64,000 nucleotides of DNA from Syntrophaceae bacterium (GTDB taxonomy: Bacteria > Desulfobacterota > Syntrophia > Syntrophales > Smithellaceae). Under the pieces are notes generated by a model. The model did no database searches, was not told where the DNA came from, and saw only the letters and a program-made list of their open reading frames with translations. Positions within the stretch are counted from its first letter, which is position 1. Each line of letters opens with the position of its first letter. Location of the stretch: the NCBI GenBank assembly GCA_009773315.1, contig WRPE01000002.1:43014-107013 (forward strand), written 5' to 3'. The translations under genes were made by a program, and so were the position numbers. Below, one piece after another: positions 378 to 20,851 of the stretch.

Positions 378-3065
378 CTAGTTACCCTTGTATTTCCTGA
401 AATGCTTGACCAGTCCGCCAAAATTATCCGGCTTATATTTTTCGAAATCTTCTTCATCAACAAATACAAAATCGAAATGGATTATCCTTTGGGATTGATT
501 GATGTCGGCGCACCATTTTTTCAAGCGTTCCATTTTCAAGGGCGCATCAATTTCTTCTAATCCCTTCGTTTCCACGACAAAAATATCTTTTTCGCCTGTT
601 TTGACAAAAAAATCCGGATAATAATTGGATATATTACCTTTGGTGTCCACATAATCAAGAGTGAAATGAACGGCCAGATAGTTCTTGGCAAAAGATATAA
701 CGTCCGGCCATTTTTCGAGCGCGGAAGCAAATTGCAATTCCAAATTGCTGTCTCCGATAATTTTATTGAAGAGGCTTTTCTGTGGCACCAGATAGCCTTG
801 TTCTTTGGCCACGAATGGCCTTGTTTGACGGAGCTTTATATAATCCTTTATTTCCGCACTGCCTTTATCCTGAATGGTCAATTCATTAATTTTTGTTTTA
901 AATGTTTCCATAATAGTCTGAGCCGCGCCGGGTTCCGATAAGTTGCGTAGCGTGTTGAGATCATCAATATCAACATGATTTTTAAAAAGATGCTCCGCAA
1001 TAAAATCCCTGACTTTCGGATATAAAATATCATAACCGCTGACCAGACGCAGTTCTTTCATGATTCCCTGGGTGAAATAACCAATCACACTTCTGTAATC
1101 GCCAACGGTGTTTGATTCCAGATAGGTTACATGGTTGGTTTCGCCACTCGTAATATCCTTGAAAATAATTTCCCTTTTTTCTTCTTCCGTGTATTGCTTA
1201 TAGTCAACCTTGCGGAAATCGAAATTAGCCGGATCAATTTCTTCCAGATTTTTATAATTTCGATACATTCTTGGCGTCATAACCGGAATTTCCATGTCCA
1301 GTCTCTCAATATTTTTCCGGTCATTTTCATGGTCCACTTCGATAACAATCGGCGTTTTAGCGCCTGTGCCCGCGCCCATAGGCTTTCGTTCCAGTTCAAC
1401 GCCTTCGCTCTTTATGGACTCGACAAAATCCATGAAAGCAGGTGTGCCAACCACGCTGATATATTCAGGCACGTCGGCCCCCACGTACATTCTTCGCAAT
1501 CCACGACCCAGCGTTTGCTCGGGTAGGATATTGCTTTTAGCGGCATAGGCACGCAGGCCAACAATTGTGGTGACATTGCGGACATCCCAGCCTTCCTTCA
1601 GCATCAGCACAGAGATAATGACCTTGTAGGGGCTTTCCCAATTGTCGATTGAATTGGCGGCTTTGCGCAGAATCTCCAGTTCCTCTTTATTCTTTTTGGA
1701 ATCCGCCTCGGAGATTTCGCCGTTGTTGTTGGTGTGAATTGTTAAAATAGCGTCCTGAATTTCAGGATAAGTCGTTTTTAGATACGCTTCTACATCATCG
1801 CAGTTCTTCGTGTCGTCGGTCATCACGAAAAGGACGGCCTTCTTGCCCATCTTCTCATGCTCGGCGTAGGCCTTACGCCACTCCTCCATGCCCAGCGCCA
1901 AGTAGTCTTCATATCTTTCCGTATATTTAGAACTTTGACGTTCTTCGAGTTTGGCGCGGCTTGCCTCGTCGGGTAATACGGGATGTTTCACCACGTTTTG
2001 CGTGATCGCCTCAACTAAGGGATAATCGCAGACGGTCTGCACAAATATCGCGCCATTGTTGTGTTTGGGTGTGGCGGTAAGATCAACCTGCAAAGACAGA
2101 AAATGATCTTTCTGTTTCAGACGGTTATGAATGTCCTGGATGGATTTAAACCACGCGAGTCGGTTGTCATGAATATGATGCGCCTCATCGTTAATGACAA
2201 TCAACTCATCGATTTCGCGGACGATGACGCCCAGATCAATTTTGGAATCGTTGGTTTTCCCGACAGGCCTTTTGCCCAGGAAGTAGTCTTCCAGATTATC
2301 GTCATCAAAGCTGGGCTCAATGTCATTGCCGGCGTAAACGCGGTGAATATTGGTGAGAAAGAAATTGCCGGTTTTCCGGACAATGGAAACATCATCTTGA
2401 ATGTGCAGGGTCAATTGAAAATCATCCTGCCAGTTTTGCCCTTCGTAACCATTGTCCGGCAGCAGGGGATCTTTGAAGAATATTTTCAACCCGTCAAAAT
2501 CCGCCCGCAGTCGATCCAGAACGATAATATTCGGTGCAATCACCAGAAAATTGTTGGCCAGTTTGGAGTCTGCTTCATAAAGCTTATGAAAATAACACCA
2601 GGTGATGACCAAACTCATCACTTTTGTTTTGCCGCTGCCCGTGGCCATTTTGATCACCAGACGCAGCCAGTCTTCATCAAACATACCGGTGGAAACTGCG
2701 CCGGACGAATCAAAGCGAATCAGGTCGTATTTGTCCTTAACTTTTACGACTTCATACAGATAAATAAAGGTTTCCAACGCTTCGCGCTGGGCAAAATAAT
2801 ATTTAAAATTAAAAAGCGATCCGTCGGATTGGGGCAGAATATGCTCGCGCTGAAACCACCAGCGCAGAAGCGCCCTGCTGGTGTCGGTTGCCCCTTCATA
2901 ATCCGCGTCGCGCCAAAGGCTTACGTCCTGACGTATTTTGTGCACCAGCGGCGGCAAAAGCTTTTCATAGCTGGAATTTCTTAGCGCTTCATCCGCCGGA
3001 AACCAGCGGTATTCGGGTGGAAGTATTTCATGCGGCGACTTGGGAAAGTTCGTATGAATGGCCAT
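378..3065 (-). CDS. DEAD/DEAH-type helicase-nuclease, restriction subunit of a type III-like R-M system
   Basis: 895 aa; Walker A MATGSGKTKVMS, DEAH-like INDEAHHIHD, helicase motif LKEGWDVRNVTTIVGLRAYAAKSNILPEQTLGRGLRRMY, C-terminal PDFFVKTGEKDIFVVETKG nuclease-like motif. Confidence 0.85.
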   Translation of the reverse strand: MAIHTNFPKSPHEILPPEYRWFPADEALRNSSYEKLLPPLVHKIRQDVSLWRDADYEGATDTSRALLRWWFQREHILPQSDGSLFNFKYYFAQREALETFIYLYEVVKVKDKYDLIRFDSSGAVSTGMFDEDWLRLVIKMATGSGKTKVMSLVITWCYFHKLYEADSKLANNFLVIAPNIIVLDRLRADFDGLKIFFKDPLLPDNGYEGQNWQDDFQLTLHIQDDVSIVRKTGNFFLTNIHRVYAGNDIEPSFDDDNLEDYFLGKRPVGKTNDSKIDLGVIVREIDELIVINDEAHHIHDNRLAWFKSIQDIHNRLKQKDHFLSLQVDLTATPKHNNGAIFVQTVCDYPLVEAITQNVVKHPVLPDEASRAKLEERQSSKYTERYEDYLALGMEEWRKAYAEHEKMGKKAVLFVMTDDTKNCDDVEAYLKTTYPEIQDAILTIHTNNNGEISEADSKKNKEELEILRKAANSIDNWESPYKVIISVLMLKEGWDVRNVTTIVGLRAYAAKSNILPEQTLGRGLRRMYVGADVPEYISVVGTPAFMDFVESIKSEGVELERKPMGAGTGAKTPIVIEVDHENDRKNIERLDMEIPVMTPRMYRNYKNLEEIDPANFDFRKVDYKQYTEEEKREIIFKDITSGETNHVTYLESNTVGDYRSVIGYFTQGIMKELRLVSGYDILYPKVRDFIAEHLFKNHVDIDDLNTLRNLSEPGAAQTIMETFKTKINELTIQDKGSAEIKDYIKLRQTRPFVAKEQGYLVPQKSLFNKIIGDSNLELQFASALEKWPDVISFAKNYLAVHFTLDYVDTKGNISNYYPDFFVKTGEKDIFVVETKGLEEIDAPLKMERLKKWCADINQSQRIIHFDFVFVDEEDFEKYKPDNFGGLVKHFRKYKGN

Positions 3066-3196: not shown

Positions 3197-4018
3197 TTAT
3201 TTTTTCTTCAACTCCAGTTTTTTAATTTGCGAATCTTCCGTCAGCAGCCGCATTTGACCGATGGCGATTTTATTGAGCTTTGCCAGACGTGTTTCTTGCG
3301 GCAATCCTTCGTTGATAAAAAGAGCATTGAGATTTTCCAAATTGGACAGGCAAACCAGTTGGGCGCCATTGGCGTGATCTCTTATATTGCCTTTTTTATC
3401 ATTACTTTTATCCCGCCAGTTTTTGGCTGTCATGCCGAAAAGCGCCATATTCAACACATCCGCCTCGGATGCATAAATGATGTTGATTTGATTTTTTGTA
3501 AGTTCCGGAGGAATCAAATTTTCTTTGATGGCGTCCGTATGAATACGATAATTGATTTTCGCCAGGTTGCGTTTGATGTCCCAGCCAAGCTGCTTTTGTT
3601 CCTCTTCCTTTAATCGCTGAAACTCTTTGATCAGATATAATTTGAATTCTACGGAAATCCAGGATGCAAAATCAAAAGCAATGTCTTTATGCGCATAAGT
3701 TCCGCCATACCGCCCTGCTTTCGAAATAATACCAATGGCATTTGTTTTTTCGATCCACTGGCTCGGCGTTAAAGTAAAGCTGTTGAGACCGGCTTGTTTT
3801 TTAAACCCGTCGAATTCGACGGGTTTAAAATCTGGGTTGTACAGATGTTCCCATATCCCCAAAAATTCAATCGTATTTCTGTTGCGCAGCCAGTTTCGAA
3901 TCAAATCATCCGTTCTGTCTGTGTTTTTATATCGTGCAATATCCGTGAGACAAATATAATCTTCATCTTGCTGCTTATAGAAGGAAATGTCTTTATTCAG
4001 AACTGTAAGTTTGCCCAT
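3197..4018 (-). CDS. KilA-N domain DNA-binding protein
   Basis: 273 aa; ICLTDIARYKN...LIRNWLRNRNTIEFLGIWEHLYNPDFK...SKAGRYGGTYAHKDIAFDFASWISVEFKLYLIKEFQRLK matches the KilA-N pattern. Confidence 0.8.
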   Translation of the reverse strand: MGKLTVLNKDISFYKQQDEDYICLTDIARYKNTDRTDDLIRNWLRNRNTIEFLGIWEHLYNPDFKPVEFDGFKKQAGLNSFTLTPSQWIEKTNAIGIISKAGRYGGTYAHKDIAFDFASWISVEFKLYLIKEFQRLKEEEQKQLGWDIKRNLAKINYRIHTDAIKENLIPPELTKNQINIIYASEADVLNMALFGMTAKNWRDKSNDKKGNIRDHANGAQLVCLSNLENLNALFINEGLPQETRLAKLNKIAIGQMRLLTEDSQIKKLELKKK

Positions 4019-4027
4019 TTTACTCCT

Positions 4028-4102
4028 CGTGCAAATAAATTAGTCGTAAATATTTAATATTATTGCACTCTATTTTTATTTGCAGCGGCCCGTGCAAATA
4101 AA
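4028..4102. promoter_or_regulatory. Cluster of TGCAAATAAA repeats upstream of the KilA-N gene (possible operator)
   Basis: CGTGCAAATAAA at 4028-4039 and 4091-4102, inverted TTTATTTGCA at 4075-4084. Confidence 0.4.
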
Positions 4103-4116
4103 CAATGCTCTTGCGC

Positions 4117-6717
4117 TTATACCGTCACATCAATAATCTTCATCGTATCGTTGCCGAAGATGTCCACGACTTTGACGGCGATTTTGTAGCGGCCCGGTTG
4201 GCATTCATGATAGGGCGTTTGCAATTCCAGTGAGCGGTCTTTTTTGGTGCGGAAAGACTGCCACTCATTTTCAAAGATGAAATCGCCCGTCCACTTTTCT
4301 TCCATCTCGCCGCTGGCTTCATCCTCAACCCGGACAATTTCCCGCTTGCTTTCAAAGTCGAAATCCACGCTCCAGTAATCAATCCAATCCGTCCATTTCT
4401 TGGTGAGCACCTCACGGGTGACGATGCCGTTTTTATCTTTGGACACCTTGATGATTTTCCCCTGCTCGACAACAATTTTATTTTTGCCGTCTTTCAAGGT
4501 TTGCGCCGCATTATCGACGCTGTCCTGAGAATAGTAAACGGAAAAATCGGTCAGTTCCACGGCGACAAGGGGAAGTCCCCCTGACAAGGGGGATTTAGGG
4601 GGTTTGTTCAAACGTCGTTGCGCTACTTTTTCAAGTAAATCCTCAAACACACCTTCGATGTTGCCAAGAACTTCTGCATTCATGTAACGAACAACCTGAA
4701 CATCAAATGCATTCAGACGTTTTGTCCGTTGTGTGTCATAGTCTATGCTTTCCGCGTGAGACTCGCCGTCTATTTCAATAGCCAGCATAAGTTCGGCGCA
4801 ATAAAAATCAACAATGTATTGGTCTAGAGGCTTTTGGCGCGTGAATTTCAGATCCGCAAGTTTTTTGTTTTGCAGAACTTCATACCATAGTTTTTTTTCC
4901 GACGGCGTCGGATTGCTCCGGTTTTCCTGCGCCTTTGGAGTGAGACTGGGATCGTAGGGAACATAACCCCCCTTGCCCCCCTTGTCAGGGGGGTATTTCA
5001 CGAGCGGTTTGATATCAATATAGGAGACGTCGTGGAAAACGACCTGATTTTTTTCCACGGCTCGTTTGTCGAAGACTTCGCGGGGAATGTATTTAAGGGC
5101 GAGGTCAATGCCCTTGGCTTTTGCTTCTTCCTGAATGTTGGGAAAAAGGCCCATCTCAAATTCAAAGGCCAGAATATCCACGCGGGAAATCCGTTTTTCA
5201 CGGCACTCCAGAATAATTTCCTCCACAAATAGCCTCGTCACCGGCAGGTTGATCGGCCCAACGGACACCAACCGCCCGGCTTTCTTGCCGTGGAAGCATT
5301 TGAAGTTTTCAGCACTTTCCGCCTTGTAGGCTTTAAGAATCAGGGCAATGAAGTCTTTTTCTTTTTGTAAGAGTTGCTGCTGGCGTTCTTCTTCTCGCAG
5401 ATTCATGTTGACGCCGATGTAATGTGCCCGTTCATATTTACCGAGATTCAGGATTTCAAACGCCCTGAAGTCTTTCCCGTCTGATTTAAGCTGACGCTGG
5501 ACGCCGATCAGGCGCTTGCGTGCCGTGTGAATGGCAAACTTACCCAGATCGGAGCCGATCCACTTGCGCCCCAGCTTTTCGGCCACGGCCATCGTTGTGC
5601 CGGAGCCACAGAAGAAGTCAGCCACGATATCGTTTTCGTTGGAAGAAACCTTAATGATTCTTTCTAGCAAAGCTTCTGATTTTTGTGTTGGGTATTTAGT
5701 GTCCTCTTCAGCCTGTGAATTTACAGGGAAGATATCAGTCCAAACATCATCTATCGGTGTTCCAGGTTGTTCATCAAGATAGAGCCTCTTCTCAAGTTGC
5801 CCATCGGGGCGTTTAACCACTCTTCCCGTTTCAATAAACTTATTTATTGTCTCGTCAGTGGTCGTCCCAAGCCAATGTGGACGATAACGTCGACCTTTTT
5901 CATCGATCTGAGTATAGTGACTTTTGATGTATGCTTCTGAATATGGAGCGTATTGTGTATTAAACGTGAATTTGGTAGACTTCGTAAACCAAAACATTGA
6001 GTCATGTGCTCGACCATACTTTTTTATTCCCTTGTAGCCCGAGGAAGTTTGCCGTTTCCATCTTATGCATCCTTGATAAAAAGAATCCCCAAATATTTCT
6101 GAAAGTACAAGACGAAGATGATCAACAAGTCGCCAATCCACGTGCACATAAATACACCCATCATCGGCCAGTAGATCCCGCATCAAGCTCAACCGTTCAT
6201 AGATCATCGCAATGAAGCTGTCCGCGCCCTTGCCCCACGTGTCGCGATAGGCCAGCTCTTCCAGTACATTGGGCTTTTTCGTAAAGGTCTCGTCACCGAT
6301 TTCAATGTCCATTGAAAAATCAGCGCCCACATCAAAGGGCGGGTCGATATAAATCAACTTGATGCCGCCCTGCTTTTCTATTTCATCCCGGATCGGACCG
6401 TTTTTCAGTGAGGAAAGAATAAGCTTGTTGTCGCCCCAGATGAGTTTGTTTGTCCATCCGGTTTTCTGACGGCCTCGGAAATCAAACAGATCGCTTTGCA
6501 CACCCGTATCCGCCTGTTTCTCCGCACGCGGTTCGTCTATCTGTTCGATCACCTGAAAAGGCAAAACGATGTTGGTCACTTCATTGGTCTTGCCGTTCCA
6601 AATCAACTCCACTTCCCGTTTATCGTCAAACAATAGGAACCGATACTTATCCGGCAGCGGCTTCTCTGCCTCAATCAGTTTCAATATCTCCCGCTTTTCA
6701 TTATCCGTCAGTTTCAT
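4117..6717 (-). CDS. Site-specific DNA (adenine) methyltransferase, type III Mod-like, with internal DUF559-type nuclease insert
   Basis: 866 aa; [12 protein letters not shown] (DPPF), [27 protein letters not shown] motif; internal [53 protein letters not shown] block typical of DUF559. Confidence 0.88.
4564..4999 (-). mobile_element. Putative mobile DUF559/Vsr-like nuclease cassette inserted in frame within the methyltransferase gene
   Basis: DUF559-like coding block bounded by inverted copies of CCCCCTGACAAGGGGG(G): left ggggaagtccccctgacaagggggatttaggggg, right ccccccttgccccccttgtcaggggggtattt. Confidence 0.6.
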
Positions 6718-10326: not shown

Positions 10327-11091
10327 ATGCTAAACCGTTTAGTGAGTTCTATTTTTCTTGTCTTTATCGCTCTGACGTCCATTCCGCTGTTTTTCATCGC
10401 CCTGCTTTTGCGTCTGTTTACCTATCCTTTTGACCGGCGTCTGCGTCTCTTGCATTTGTTTACCTGCTTTTGGGCTTCGATTTATACTTGGATGATGGTG
10501 CCTTGGCGGATTCGCGTTGAGGGTCGCGGTAATGTTCGCAAAGACGCGGCGTATGTGGTTGTTTCCAATCATCAATCGCAACTGGATATCCTGGTTGCCT
10601 TCCGGCTTTTTTTCCATTTTAAATGGGTATCCAAGATTGAAATGTTCCGCATTCCGCTGATCGGCTGGAATATGATGTTGAACCGTTACATTAAACTGAA
10701 ACGTGGCGACAGGGAAAGTGTAGAACTAATGCTGCGGGAATGTGAAATCCATCTGGATGAGGGAAGTTCCATCTTCATGTACCCCGAAGGAACCCGCTCT
10801 CCCGATGGCGAAGTCAAGGCTTTTAAACTCGGCGCATTTCAGTTGGCGTTGAAGAAGAAGTTGCCCATTCTTCCAGTTGTCATCAGCGGAACGAACAAGG
10901 CCTTGCCCAAATACAGCATGAACTTCACCGGTGTGCAGAAAATGTATATCAAAATTTTTAAAGAGATCCCGTATTCGGCTTTTGAAAACTTATCGGCGGA
11001 GGATACGGCGCAAATAGTGCGTCAATTCATCATCGCAAAACTGAATGTCATGAACGAATATACCCTAGGTGGTTTGCGGCGCCAACCCTAA
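10327..11091 (+). CDS. 1-acyl-sn-glycerol-3-phosphate acyltransferase (PlsC-like)
   Basis: 254 aa; VVVSNHQSQLDIL (HX4D-type), SSIFMYPEGTRSPDGEVKAFKLGAFQLA, ILPVVISGTNKALP. Confidence 0.88.
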   Translation: MLNRLVSSIFLVFIALTSIPLFFIALLLRLFTYPFDRRLRLLHLFTCFWASIYTWMMVPWRIRVEGRGNVRKDAAYVVVSNHQSQLDILVAFRLFFHFKWVSKIEMFRIPLIGWNMMLNRYIKLKRGDRESVELMLRECEIHLDEGSSIFMYPEGTRSPDGEVKAFKLGAFQLALKKKLPILPVVISGTNKALPKYSMNFTGVQKMYIKIFKEIPYSAFENLSAEDTAQIVRQFIIAKLNVMNEYTLGGLRRQP

Positions 11092-11173
11092 ACATTCAGC
11101 AACGCGCGGCCGATTTTTTCCTGCCGAATCTGCAGAAGTCTTTTTTTGAGCGTCACCAGCGATTCCATATCCC
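11088..11173 (-). pseudogene. Relic of an acyl-CoA dehydrogenase 3' end (direct repeat with 19727-19812)
   Basis: 86 bp with about 5 mismatches to 19727-19812; translates DMESLVTLKKRLLQIRQEKIGRALLNV*, the C-terminus of the 19727-20851 protein. Confidence 0.85.
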
Positions 11174-19726: not shown

Positions 19727-20851
19727 CTAAACATTCAGCAATGCGCGGCCGATTTTTTCCTGCCGAATCTGCAGAAGTCTTTTCTTGAGCGTCAGCAGTG
19801 ATCCCATATCCCGCTGAAGGTAATCGCATTCGGCGGGCGTGTTGCTTTTCCAATTGTCGGTCATTTGACCGATGCCGGTGTGAAACTCCGCAGCCAGTCG
19901 CCCAAAAGTAATCATGATGGGAATAGGTCGGCCGTTGCCCCGATCAAGCTGGTCTGCCGCTTCATAAGCGATGATCCGCAGGGTTTGCAGCAGGGCATGG
20001 AGAGCTCCCAACTCTCCTTCCAGCGCCCGGTTCGTTTCCGTCTGATGCTCCCGGATGGTGTCCATCAACATGGTCAGTTGTGCGGCCATGCCGCCCAGCG
20101 CAGGTCCCATCATCACCACATCTTCTATTTCTCCGAAGGGGACGACGATATCCGGCCAGGCGCTTCCTTCCTTTCCCAGAACGAATCTTTGCCCGATGAC
20201 GCAATTTTCCAGTTTAATGCCGCCGTGCGGCGAAGGTTTCAGAAAATTTATGGCCAGCGGCGGTGTTACGGTGACGCCTTCACCATTGCGTGGCAGGATA
20301 AAGGCCGTAAAGCGCTTTTTTGTCTCGATGTCATCGGTACAGGCGATTACAATAAAAACGTCGGCAATCGGGCCGTTGGTCAGATAGGTTTTCTCACCGT
20401 TTAAGACAAAATGCTTTTCGTGTTTTTGGGCTTTCGTGGTCAATAACTTGGGGCGTGAACCGTGTCCCGGTTCGGAGACGGCAAAAGAAAATATGGTTTT
20501 CCCTTCAGCTGCGGCAGGGAGATATTGCCGACGCTGCTGAGGCGTGCCGAAAACGTTAATGACGTAATGAGCAATGATCTGCTGGTAGAGCCAGGATACG
20601 GCCAGACCCAGGTTGTATCCGCTTTTAACAAAGGCCTCTCCCCCTTTCAGAAGGTCGAGATACCCGCCGCCGGCGCCGCCGTAGATTTCAGCGATCCCGA
20701 TTTGAAAAAGGCCGGCCTCGCCCATTTTCCGCCAGATATCCATGGGAAATTCCTGCCCCGTCTGTAAATCCGGTCGGCAGGCAATATACTCGGCGGCAAA
20801 AGCCGCCGTCTGTTTGTGTATTTTTATCTGGTTTTCATCCGGTTGATGCAT
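19727..20851 (-). CDS. Acyl-CoA dehydrogenase family protein
   Basis: 374 aa; FSFAVSEPGHGSRPKLLTTKAQKHEKHFVLNGEKTYLTNGPIADVFIVIA; acyl-CoA DH layout. Confidence 0.85.
   Translation of the reverse strand: MHQPDENQIKIHKQTAAFAAEYIACRPDLQTGQEFPMDIWRKMGEAGLFQIGIAEIYGGAGGGYLDLLKGGEAFVKSGYNLGLAVSWLYQQIIAHYVINVFGTPQQRRQYLPAAAEGKTIFSFAVSEPGHGSRPKLLTTKAQKHEKHFVLNGEKTYLTNGPIADVFIVIACTDDIETKKRFTAFILPRNGEGVTVTPPLAINFLKPSPHGGIKLENCVIGQRFVLGKEGSAWPDIVVPFGEIEDVVMMGPALGGMAAQLTMLMDTIREHQTETNRALEGELGALHALLQTLRIIAYEAADQLDRGNGRPIPIMITFGRLAAEFHTGIGQMTDNWKSNTPAECDYLQRDMGSLLTLKKRLLQIRQEKIGRALLNV

Follow-up and report, generated by a model that had tools for sequence, protein, structure and literature searches.

A DUF559 Nuclease Cassette with Palindromic Ends Inserted in Frame in a Type III DNA Methyltransferase Gene: A Candidate Mobile Element

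Introduction

In-frame palindromes such as the Rickettsia palindromic elements (RPE), palindrome–enzyme pairs such as REP/RAYT, and homing endonucleases of the DUF559 type are each already known. DUF559 genes are very common in sequence databases and are usually annotated only as "endonuclease domain-containing protein". The EDxHD (Vsr-like) family of homing endonucleases takes in DUF559 (PMC9403480). Endonucleases of this family, such as I-Bth0305I, are described from introns, from inteins, or from free-standing genes. VsrA, a DUF559 protein of Caulobacter, acts on DNA and is functionally tied to a methyltransferase (PMC12907096).

The present work concerns a DUF559 domain that lies inside the modification (Mod) gene of a type III restriction–modification (R-M) system, in a stretch of 64,000 nucleotides from a Syntrophaceae bacterium that is referred to here as the window. 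The explanation that we favor, and that we consider fairly probable, is that a small mobile cassette, composed of a DUF559 nuclease between inverted REP-like palindromes, entered Mod and most likely spreads by itself. Comparison of related loci establishes, at the level of sequence, the boundaries of the cassette, its recent gain, and its repeated acquisition by unrelated lineages at a single site. The same comparison shows that the repeats are part of the unit and that the same arrangement occurs in other R-M genes.

Structure of the Cassette and Its Host Gene

The initial annotation of the window had described an insert at 4564-4999 in an 866-aa methyltransferase reading frame, bounded by inverted copies of one sequence and translated in frame. 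These points were confirmed. DNA alignment to the empty orthologous operons L300 and L302 ends at 4563-4565 and restarts at 5000, which moves the boundaries by only a few bases, to 4566-4999 (Table 1), and host DNA is 86–94% identical to the empty relatives up to the cassette edge on both sides. Pfam recognizes both the N6_N4_Mtase domain and DUF559 (PF04480, E 2.7e-29). The bounding sequences form a perfect 16-nt inverted pair, CCCCCTGACAAGGGGG, at 4577-4592 and 4977-4992, and the flank inverted-repeat score of the window is 16, compared with about 12 for the best of 100 shuffles. The open frame continues across the insert, whose 434 nt occupy the position of 32-34 nt in the host. The alignment of Mod homologs gives the clean insertion that had been proposed, and the close orthologs in G006, G013, and G026 read straight through, one example being KPLV-RTRKKGM-LPALAVEL where the window has KPLV-K[YPPDKGG...SPLSGG]LPLVAVEL.

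Table 1. Features of the type III R-M operon and of the inserted cassette (window coordinates).
Feature	Coordinates	Strand	Basis
DUF559 cassette, 434 nt; replaces ~32-34 nt of host DNA and adds a net 402 nt, frame kept	4566..4999	-	DNA alignment to L300 and L302; empty junctions
5' end repeat of cassette: palindrome plus GGGGGG box, ACCCCCCTGACAAGGGGGGCAAGGGGGGTTA	4964..4994	-	Edge common to L101-L108; hairpin predicted
3' end repeat of cassette: CCCCCTAAATCCCCCTTGTCAGGGGGACTT, inverted copy of the 5' repeat	4573..4602	-	Hairpin predicted
DUF559 nuclease domain, aa 593-698	4624..4941	-	Pfam PF04480, E 2.7e-29
Type III Mod DNA methyltransferase (host gene), 866 aa including insert	4117..6717	-	ORF, Pfam; PADLOC MTase_III, E 3e-108
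Catalytic N6_N4_Mtase domain (Mod aa 119-400), located upstream of insert	5518..6363	-	Pfam
KilA-N domain gene, same operon, between Mod and Res	3197..4018	-	PADLOC PDC-S22 (candidate)
Res (type III R-M subunit), which contains an endonuclease domain of its own	378..3065	-	PADLOC

The Mod orthologs without the insert in these three genomes of the same bacterial family share 82–84% amino acid identity with the window Mod. Operons compared with that of the window come from two genera of the family. In G006, gene order matches the window throughout the type III R-M operon (Mod, KilA-N, Res), and the KilA-N gene is also kept between Mod and Res in this empty operon (L300). In G013, Mod and Res follow the same order, and a match to KilA-N was not found there. 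Elsewhere in the window, an 86-nt repeat, 94% identical, occurs at 11088-11173 and 19727-19812.

The only internal in-frame start ahead of the catalytic core is GTG573, which lacks a Shine-Dalgarno-like sequence; for this reason, the window nuclease is probably translated solely within the Mod polypeptide. The AlphaFold model of full-length Mod, with a mean pLDDT of 60, hints that the insert sits between the Mod strands 567-574 and 717-725.

Several known types of insertion were considered and rejected. No intein family was found in the window protein by Pfam, no splicing blocks were recognized, and the cassette junctions (VK-YPPD and SGG-LP) carry no Cys, Ser, or Thr, so an intein was discarded. 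No Rfam match above gathering lies within 4000-5600, and a group I or group II intron was discarded on this ground. The absence of splicing signals in the window cassette that had been noted initially is thus borne out by both databases. No target-site duplication or direct repeat was seen at the cassette junctions or in the empty-site alignments, and Pfam detected no transposase (DDE or HUH) within the window cassette, which rejects a classical insertion sequence or transposon; DUF559 is the only gene between the repeats, which rejects REP/RAYT. Hairpin replacement of the IS1272 type at the Mod site was also rejected, since the empty alleles contain no consistent palindrome.

The Nuclease and Its Host Genes

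By its family, its fold, and its conserved E, D, E, H, and D residues, the DUF559 insert belongs to the EDxHD/Vsr-like nucleases. All 14 of 14 invariant columns are kept across 28 members, including the putative catalytic residues E607, D637, E648, D650, H654, and D661; R627, Q628, and R664 are likewise conserved in the window. Values of dN/dS between related cassettes range from 0.06 to 0.13, in a set that includes the Mod-resident versus non-Mod pair L101/L102, where dS is near saturation. By comparison, the nuclease is intact and under purifying selection. The model of the cassette protein has a pLDDT of 86 and a pTM of 0.82, with low confidence in the repeat-encoded ends. With this model, Foldseek retrieves 3HRL (E 2e-6) and, as the second-best match, the catalytic domain of the homing endonuclease I-Bth0305I (3R3P; TM 0.79 on target). 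No extra DNA-binding domain, as in other homing endonucleases, is recognizable in the DUF559 core.

In-frame cassettes also occur in other host genes. Two HsdR proteins (L085 and L094) carry the cassette in the same loop, and sequence around the site is 94% identical in the empty alleles L198 and L199. The central linker of HsdS is occupied in L087 and L089, with an empty allele (L174) from the same genus. Further hosts are DUF1156 methyltransferases (L091 and L092, the former with an upstream stop in the host gene) and an HsdM of Pseudomonadota (L369). In L090 (G275:C33), a Mod-type methyltransferase contains an intein-like insert whose nuclease position seems to be taken by DUF559; this insert has a Cys...His-Asn-Cys pattern and an intein match below the Pfam cut-off. 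In L115, DUF559 is joined in front of a methyltransferase. The HsdR, HsdS, HsdM, and DUF1156 hosts were picked by their long open frames, so the conservation of the frame is partly ascertained in them. The Mod cases came from a scan with the insert as the query and were chosen without the long-frame criterion, and the three of them that are complete or near-complete are all in frame. Other long frames are N-terminal read-through fusions with a radical SAM protein, a PAS kinase, MurB, or a HAD phosphatase, and inspection led to the exclusion of long frames from GC-rich Pseudomonadota as probably spurious.

Two further observations were made on these hosts. The HsdR of L094 (G033:C142) also contains an in-frame GIY-YIG domain at residues 250-320 (PF01541, E 2e-15), in a different loop, and this domain is missing from the homologous L085. 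In at least seven genomes of the window's family, DUF559 is fused in frame before the same radical SAM protein (L017, L019, L021, L025, L031, L037, L038); most of these fusions retain the repeat ends, and the insertion is apparently old and fixed.

All clearly intragenic hosts found are R-M or DNA-methyltransferase genes. Together with purifying selection on the nuclease and the functional link between VsrA and a methyltransferase in Caulobacter (PMC12907096), this would fit an adaptive fusion, in which the nuclease was recruited once or several times for a new R-M function and was kept by selection rather than by its own spread. Nicking or cutting guided by the recognition domains of Mod or HsdS would be an example of such a function. 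However, the operon already possesses the Res nuclease, the closest relatives of the window Mod lack the insert, the non-coding repeat ends travel with the domain, and the same cassette is also found free-standing and in front of unrelated genes. We give recruitment of this kind, guided cutting included, a small but real chance.

Palindromic Repeats and the Generality of Repeat-Flanked DUF559

When cassettes from eleven loci are aligned, similarity begins at ACCCCCCTGAYAAGGGGGGCAAGGGGGGTTA and ends at CCCCCTAAATCCCCCTTRTCAGGGGGACTT, and the flanks beyond are unrelated. Among the 51 genomes of the window's family, CCCCCTGAYAAGGGGG occurs only in the window genome and only at the two cassette ends. 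The window genome contains no second DUF559 copy and only one imperfect palindrome elsewhere, and transposition within the host genome was rejected on these grounds. The palindrome is dispersed where the cassettes are free-standing, with 67 copies in one Poribacteria genome and 31 in an Omnitrophota genome; a reversed control pattern gave no match in any of the eleven genomes scanned for the palindrome. Free-standing DUF559 genes with the same ends, which had been suggested as a check on the initial reading, were found in Poribacteria, Nitrospirales, Troglogloeales, and other lineages. The cassette L102, which is the nearest relative of the Mod insert L101, sits in front of rseP. Intergenic cassettes have a start of their own, and in several of them (e.g., L105-L108) the frame closes at a TAA within the 3' repeat; in Mod-resident cassettes, this repeat is translated in a different phase and the frame continues into the host.

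The repeats also occur singly. Single repeats without DUF559 are found in frame at other variable loops of Mod in L101, L103, and L111 (PPLSGG...PPDKGG type), and L144 has a short palindromic insert without DUF559, PPQSPFGKGG, in frame in a Mod loop. The palindromes therefore behave in an RPE-like manner, in that they are inserted in frame into coding sequences and are also scattered over genomes. Since solitary palindromes are far more numerous than DUF559 genes, another enzyme may mobilize them.

Strong flanking inverted repeats are frequent around DUF559 genes. They were present at 22/36, 21/29, and 17/30 of these genes in three surveys (approximately 60–70%) and at 0/136, 0/104, and 2/120 of the control positions (0–2%), which were taken 750-900 nt away in the same loci. 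Around one-third of DUF559 genes have no clear flanking repeats. The initial annotation would have been undermined by repeats confined to this one locus, and the surveys point the other way. Another palindrome type, CCCTCTCCC (CCCTCTCCCn0-8GGGAGAGGG), was found in 51/67 DUF559-positive and 54/227 DUF559-negative genomes. This corresponds to an odds ratio of 10 (p 1e-14) in counts that ignore phylogeny and to which the cassettes themselves contribute, and the association persists at three or more palindromes per genome (p 4e-10). The plasmid, phage, and viral collections contained distant DUF559 relatives only, and the Maribacter relatives are mostly syntenic.

The abundance of the repeats raises the question of passive mobility, in which palindromes of the REP or RPE type would be moved by another enzyme and DUF559 would be cargo caught between two of them. 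We hold this to be improbable. The recurrence of DUF559 between these repeats, its co-occurrence with them at an odds ratio of 10, the conservation of the catalytic residues, and a dN/dS of about 0.1 all speak against mere cargo, although solitary palindromes are dispersed and, with no DUF559 beside them, also occupy other Mod loops in frame, CCCTCTCCC is present in 54/227 genomes that lack DUF559, and in-frame insertion of palindromes is known from RPEs (PMC3733652).

Empty and Filled Mod Orthologs

The initial annotation had also conceded that its reading would suffer if most homologous methyltransferases carried the domain. Empty junctions, with linkers of 4-11 aa, were verified in at least 19 orthologous Mod genes, and only 4 are filled; six further rows of the Mod tree have no visible insert, but their junctions were unmatched by the search pattern. 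The second Mod of the window genome (C74) is also empty at the cassette site. The filled genes beyond the window, which were found by scanning named genomes with the insert as the query, carry a related cassette (58–70% identical) at the same Mod position and belong to a member of Chloroflexi (L101), a Gammaproteobacterium (L103), and a Thermodesulfovibrionales MAG (L111), in which the cassette-bearing Mod is cut by the contig end. When the insert is left out of the Mod tree, the four filled genes fall at separate places among the empty ones and require four changes, and a single clade of filled genes is rejected (AU p = 8e-34). Such sporadic, non-clade occupancy of one site, with 4 filled and at least 19 empty genes, is the pattern of a homing endonuclease element. 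In a separate arrangement, L098/L164 (G330:C19:1677-3464 and 4109-4426), Mod has no insert and a repeat-flanked DUF559 gene lies directly downstream.

The identities among the filled Mods are similar for inserts (62–70%) and hosts (66–75%), and each filled pair, taken alone, could be old. The surroundings of the window insertion mark it as recent: its nearest relatives lack the cassette, and its flanks resemble those of the family. Replacement of the whole gene by horizontal transfer is unsupported, as the Mod flanks are family-like. A single ancient entry into an ancestral Mod, with many later losses that were all precise and no recent mobility, would explain why insert and host have diverged to a similar extent, but it would require many independent in-frame losses and is disfavored by the AU test. 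The 86–94% identity of the window flanks to empty relatives, the absence of the repeat from the other 50 family genomes, and the presence of the cassette at other loci further make this scenario very improbable. An assembly chimera or annotation artefact, which might be suspected in a draft genome of 86 contigs, is hardly credible, given that the locus is inside a 107-kb contig and that the junction architecture was obtained independently in three other assemblies (L101, L103, L111).

Proposed Mechanism

The comparison of empty and filled genes, together with the other loci that have the same ends, supports the mobile nuclease cassette without splicing that the initial annotation had envisaged. 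The cassette would have come into Mod as a single unit from outside the window's bacterial family and would have settled in a variable surface loop. Both of its ends are readable in the host frame, and the modification subunit is therefore still encoded, with the nuclease now its internal domain. Mod and nuclease would presumably both continue to function.

The nuclease most likely drives its own spread, and this may happen in two ways. In spliceless homing, it would cut empty alleles, and repair of the double-strand break would copy the cassette in. Alternatively, it may process the palindromes at the ends in a manner akin to transposition. No conversion tract from a known donor and no target duplication is visible, which is compatible with either route, and the window flanks resemble the empty relatives, not L101, L103, or L111. 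In either case, in-frame entry into a tolerant loop would take the place of the splicing by which inteins and introns spare their hosts, and insertions that fail to read on into the host would be removed by selection for a readable Mod.

A broader proposal is put forward only tentatively, as something that may well prove wrong. Autonomous cassettes composed of an EDxHD nuclease and REP-like palindromic ends may form a widespread class, of which solitary palindromes would be non-autonomous relatives. This class would invade R-M genes in frame, would be translated through rather than spliced, and may use the DNA-recognition domain of the host for targeting.

Comparison with Known Systems

In the open-access literature searched, no description was found of a palindrome-bounded nuclease gene that lies in frame and unspliced in R-M genes of several phyla, nor any account that connects DUF559 with palindromic repeats. 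The cassette seems to represent a mobile element of a type that has received little notice. If DUF559 proteins are the enzymes of palindrome-bounded cassettes, an orphan family would gain a role, and abundant unexplained palindromic repeats would gain a partner enzyme. A third way would then exist, beside introns and inteins, for a selfish nuclease to live in a host gene without destroying it. The bias toward R-M genes also ties selfish nucleases to the way in which bacterial defence proteins evolve.

Inteins also lie in frame in conserved proteins, with filled and empty alleles in related genes. The cassette differs in that it has neither splicing blocks nor junction nucleophiles, and the protein is expected to retain the insert. 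IS1272-type inverted-repeat-replacing transposition shares the hairpin ends and the lack of a target-site duplication (PMC5678879). It relies, however, on a classical transposase and replaces a hairpin, whereas the empty Mod sites have no consistent hairpin. REP/REPIN sequences with RAYT are likewise dispersed palindrome-plus-tag repeats, arranged in inverted pairs, with few enzyme genes and many repeats. The sequences are unrelated, and in place of a tyrosine (Y1, HUH) transposase the cassette has a nuclease of the PD-(D/E)XK/Vsr type. Rickettsia palindromic elements are short palindromic repeats that are similarly found in frame in protein genes (PMC3733652). In contrast to RPE, which have been described as short repeats, the cassette carries a nuclease gene between two palindromes and occurs in unrelated phyla. 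With the EDxHD homing endonucleases, such as I-Bth0305I, the cassette shares both the fold and the sporadic occupancy of one site in orthologs of unrelated organisms. It is set apart from them by its palindromic flanks and by its position in frame within the host polypeptide, where it resides without a splicing element or an extra DNA-binding module.
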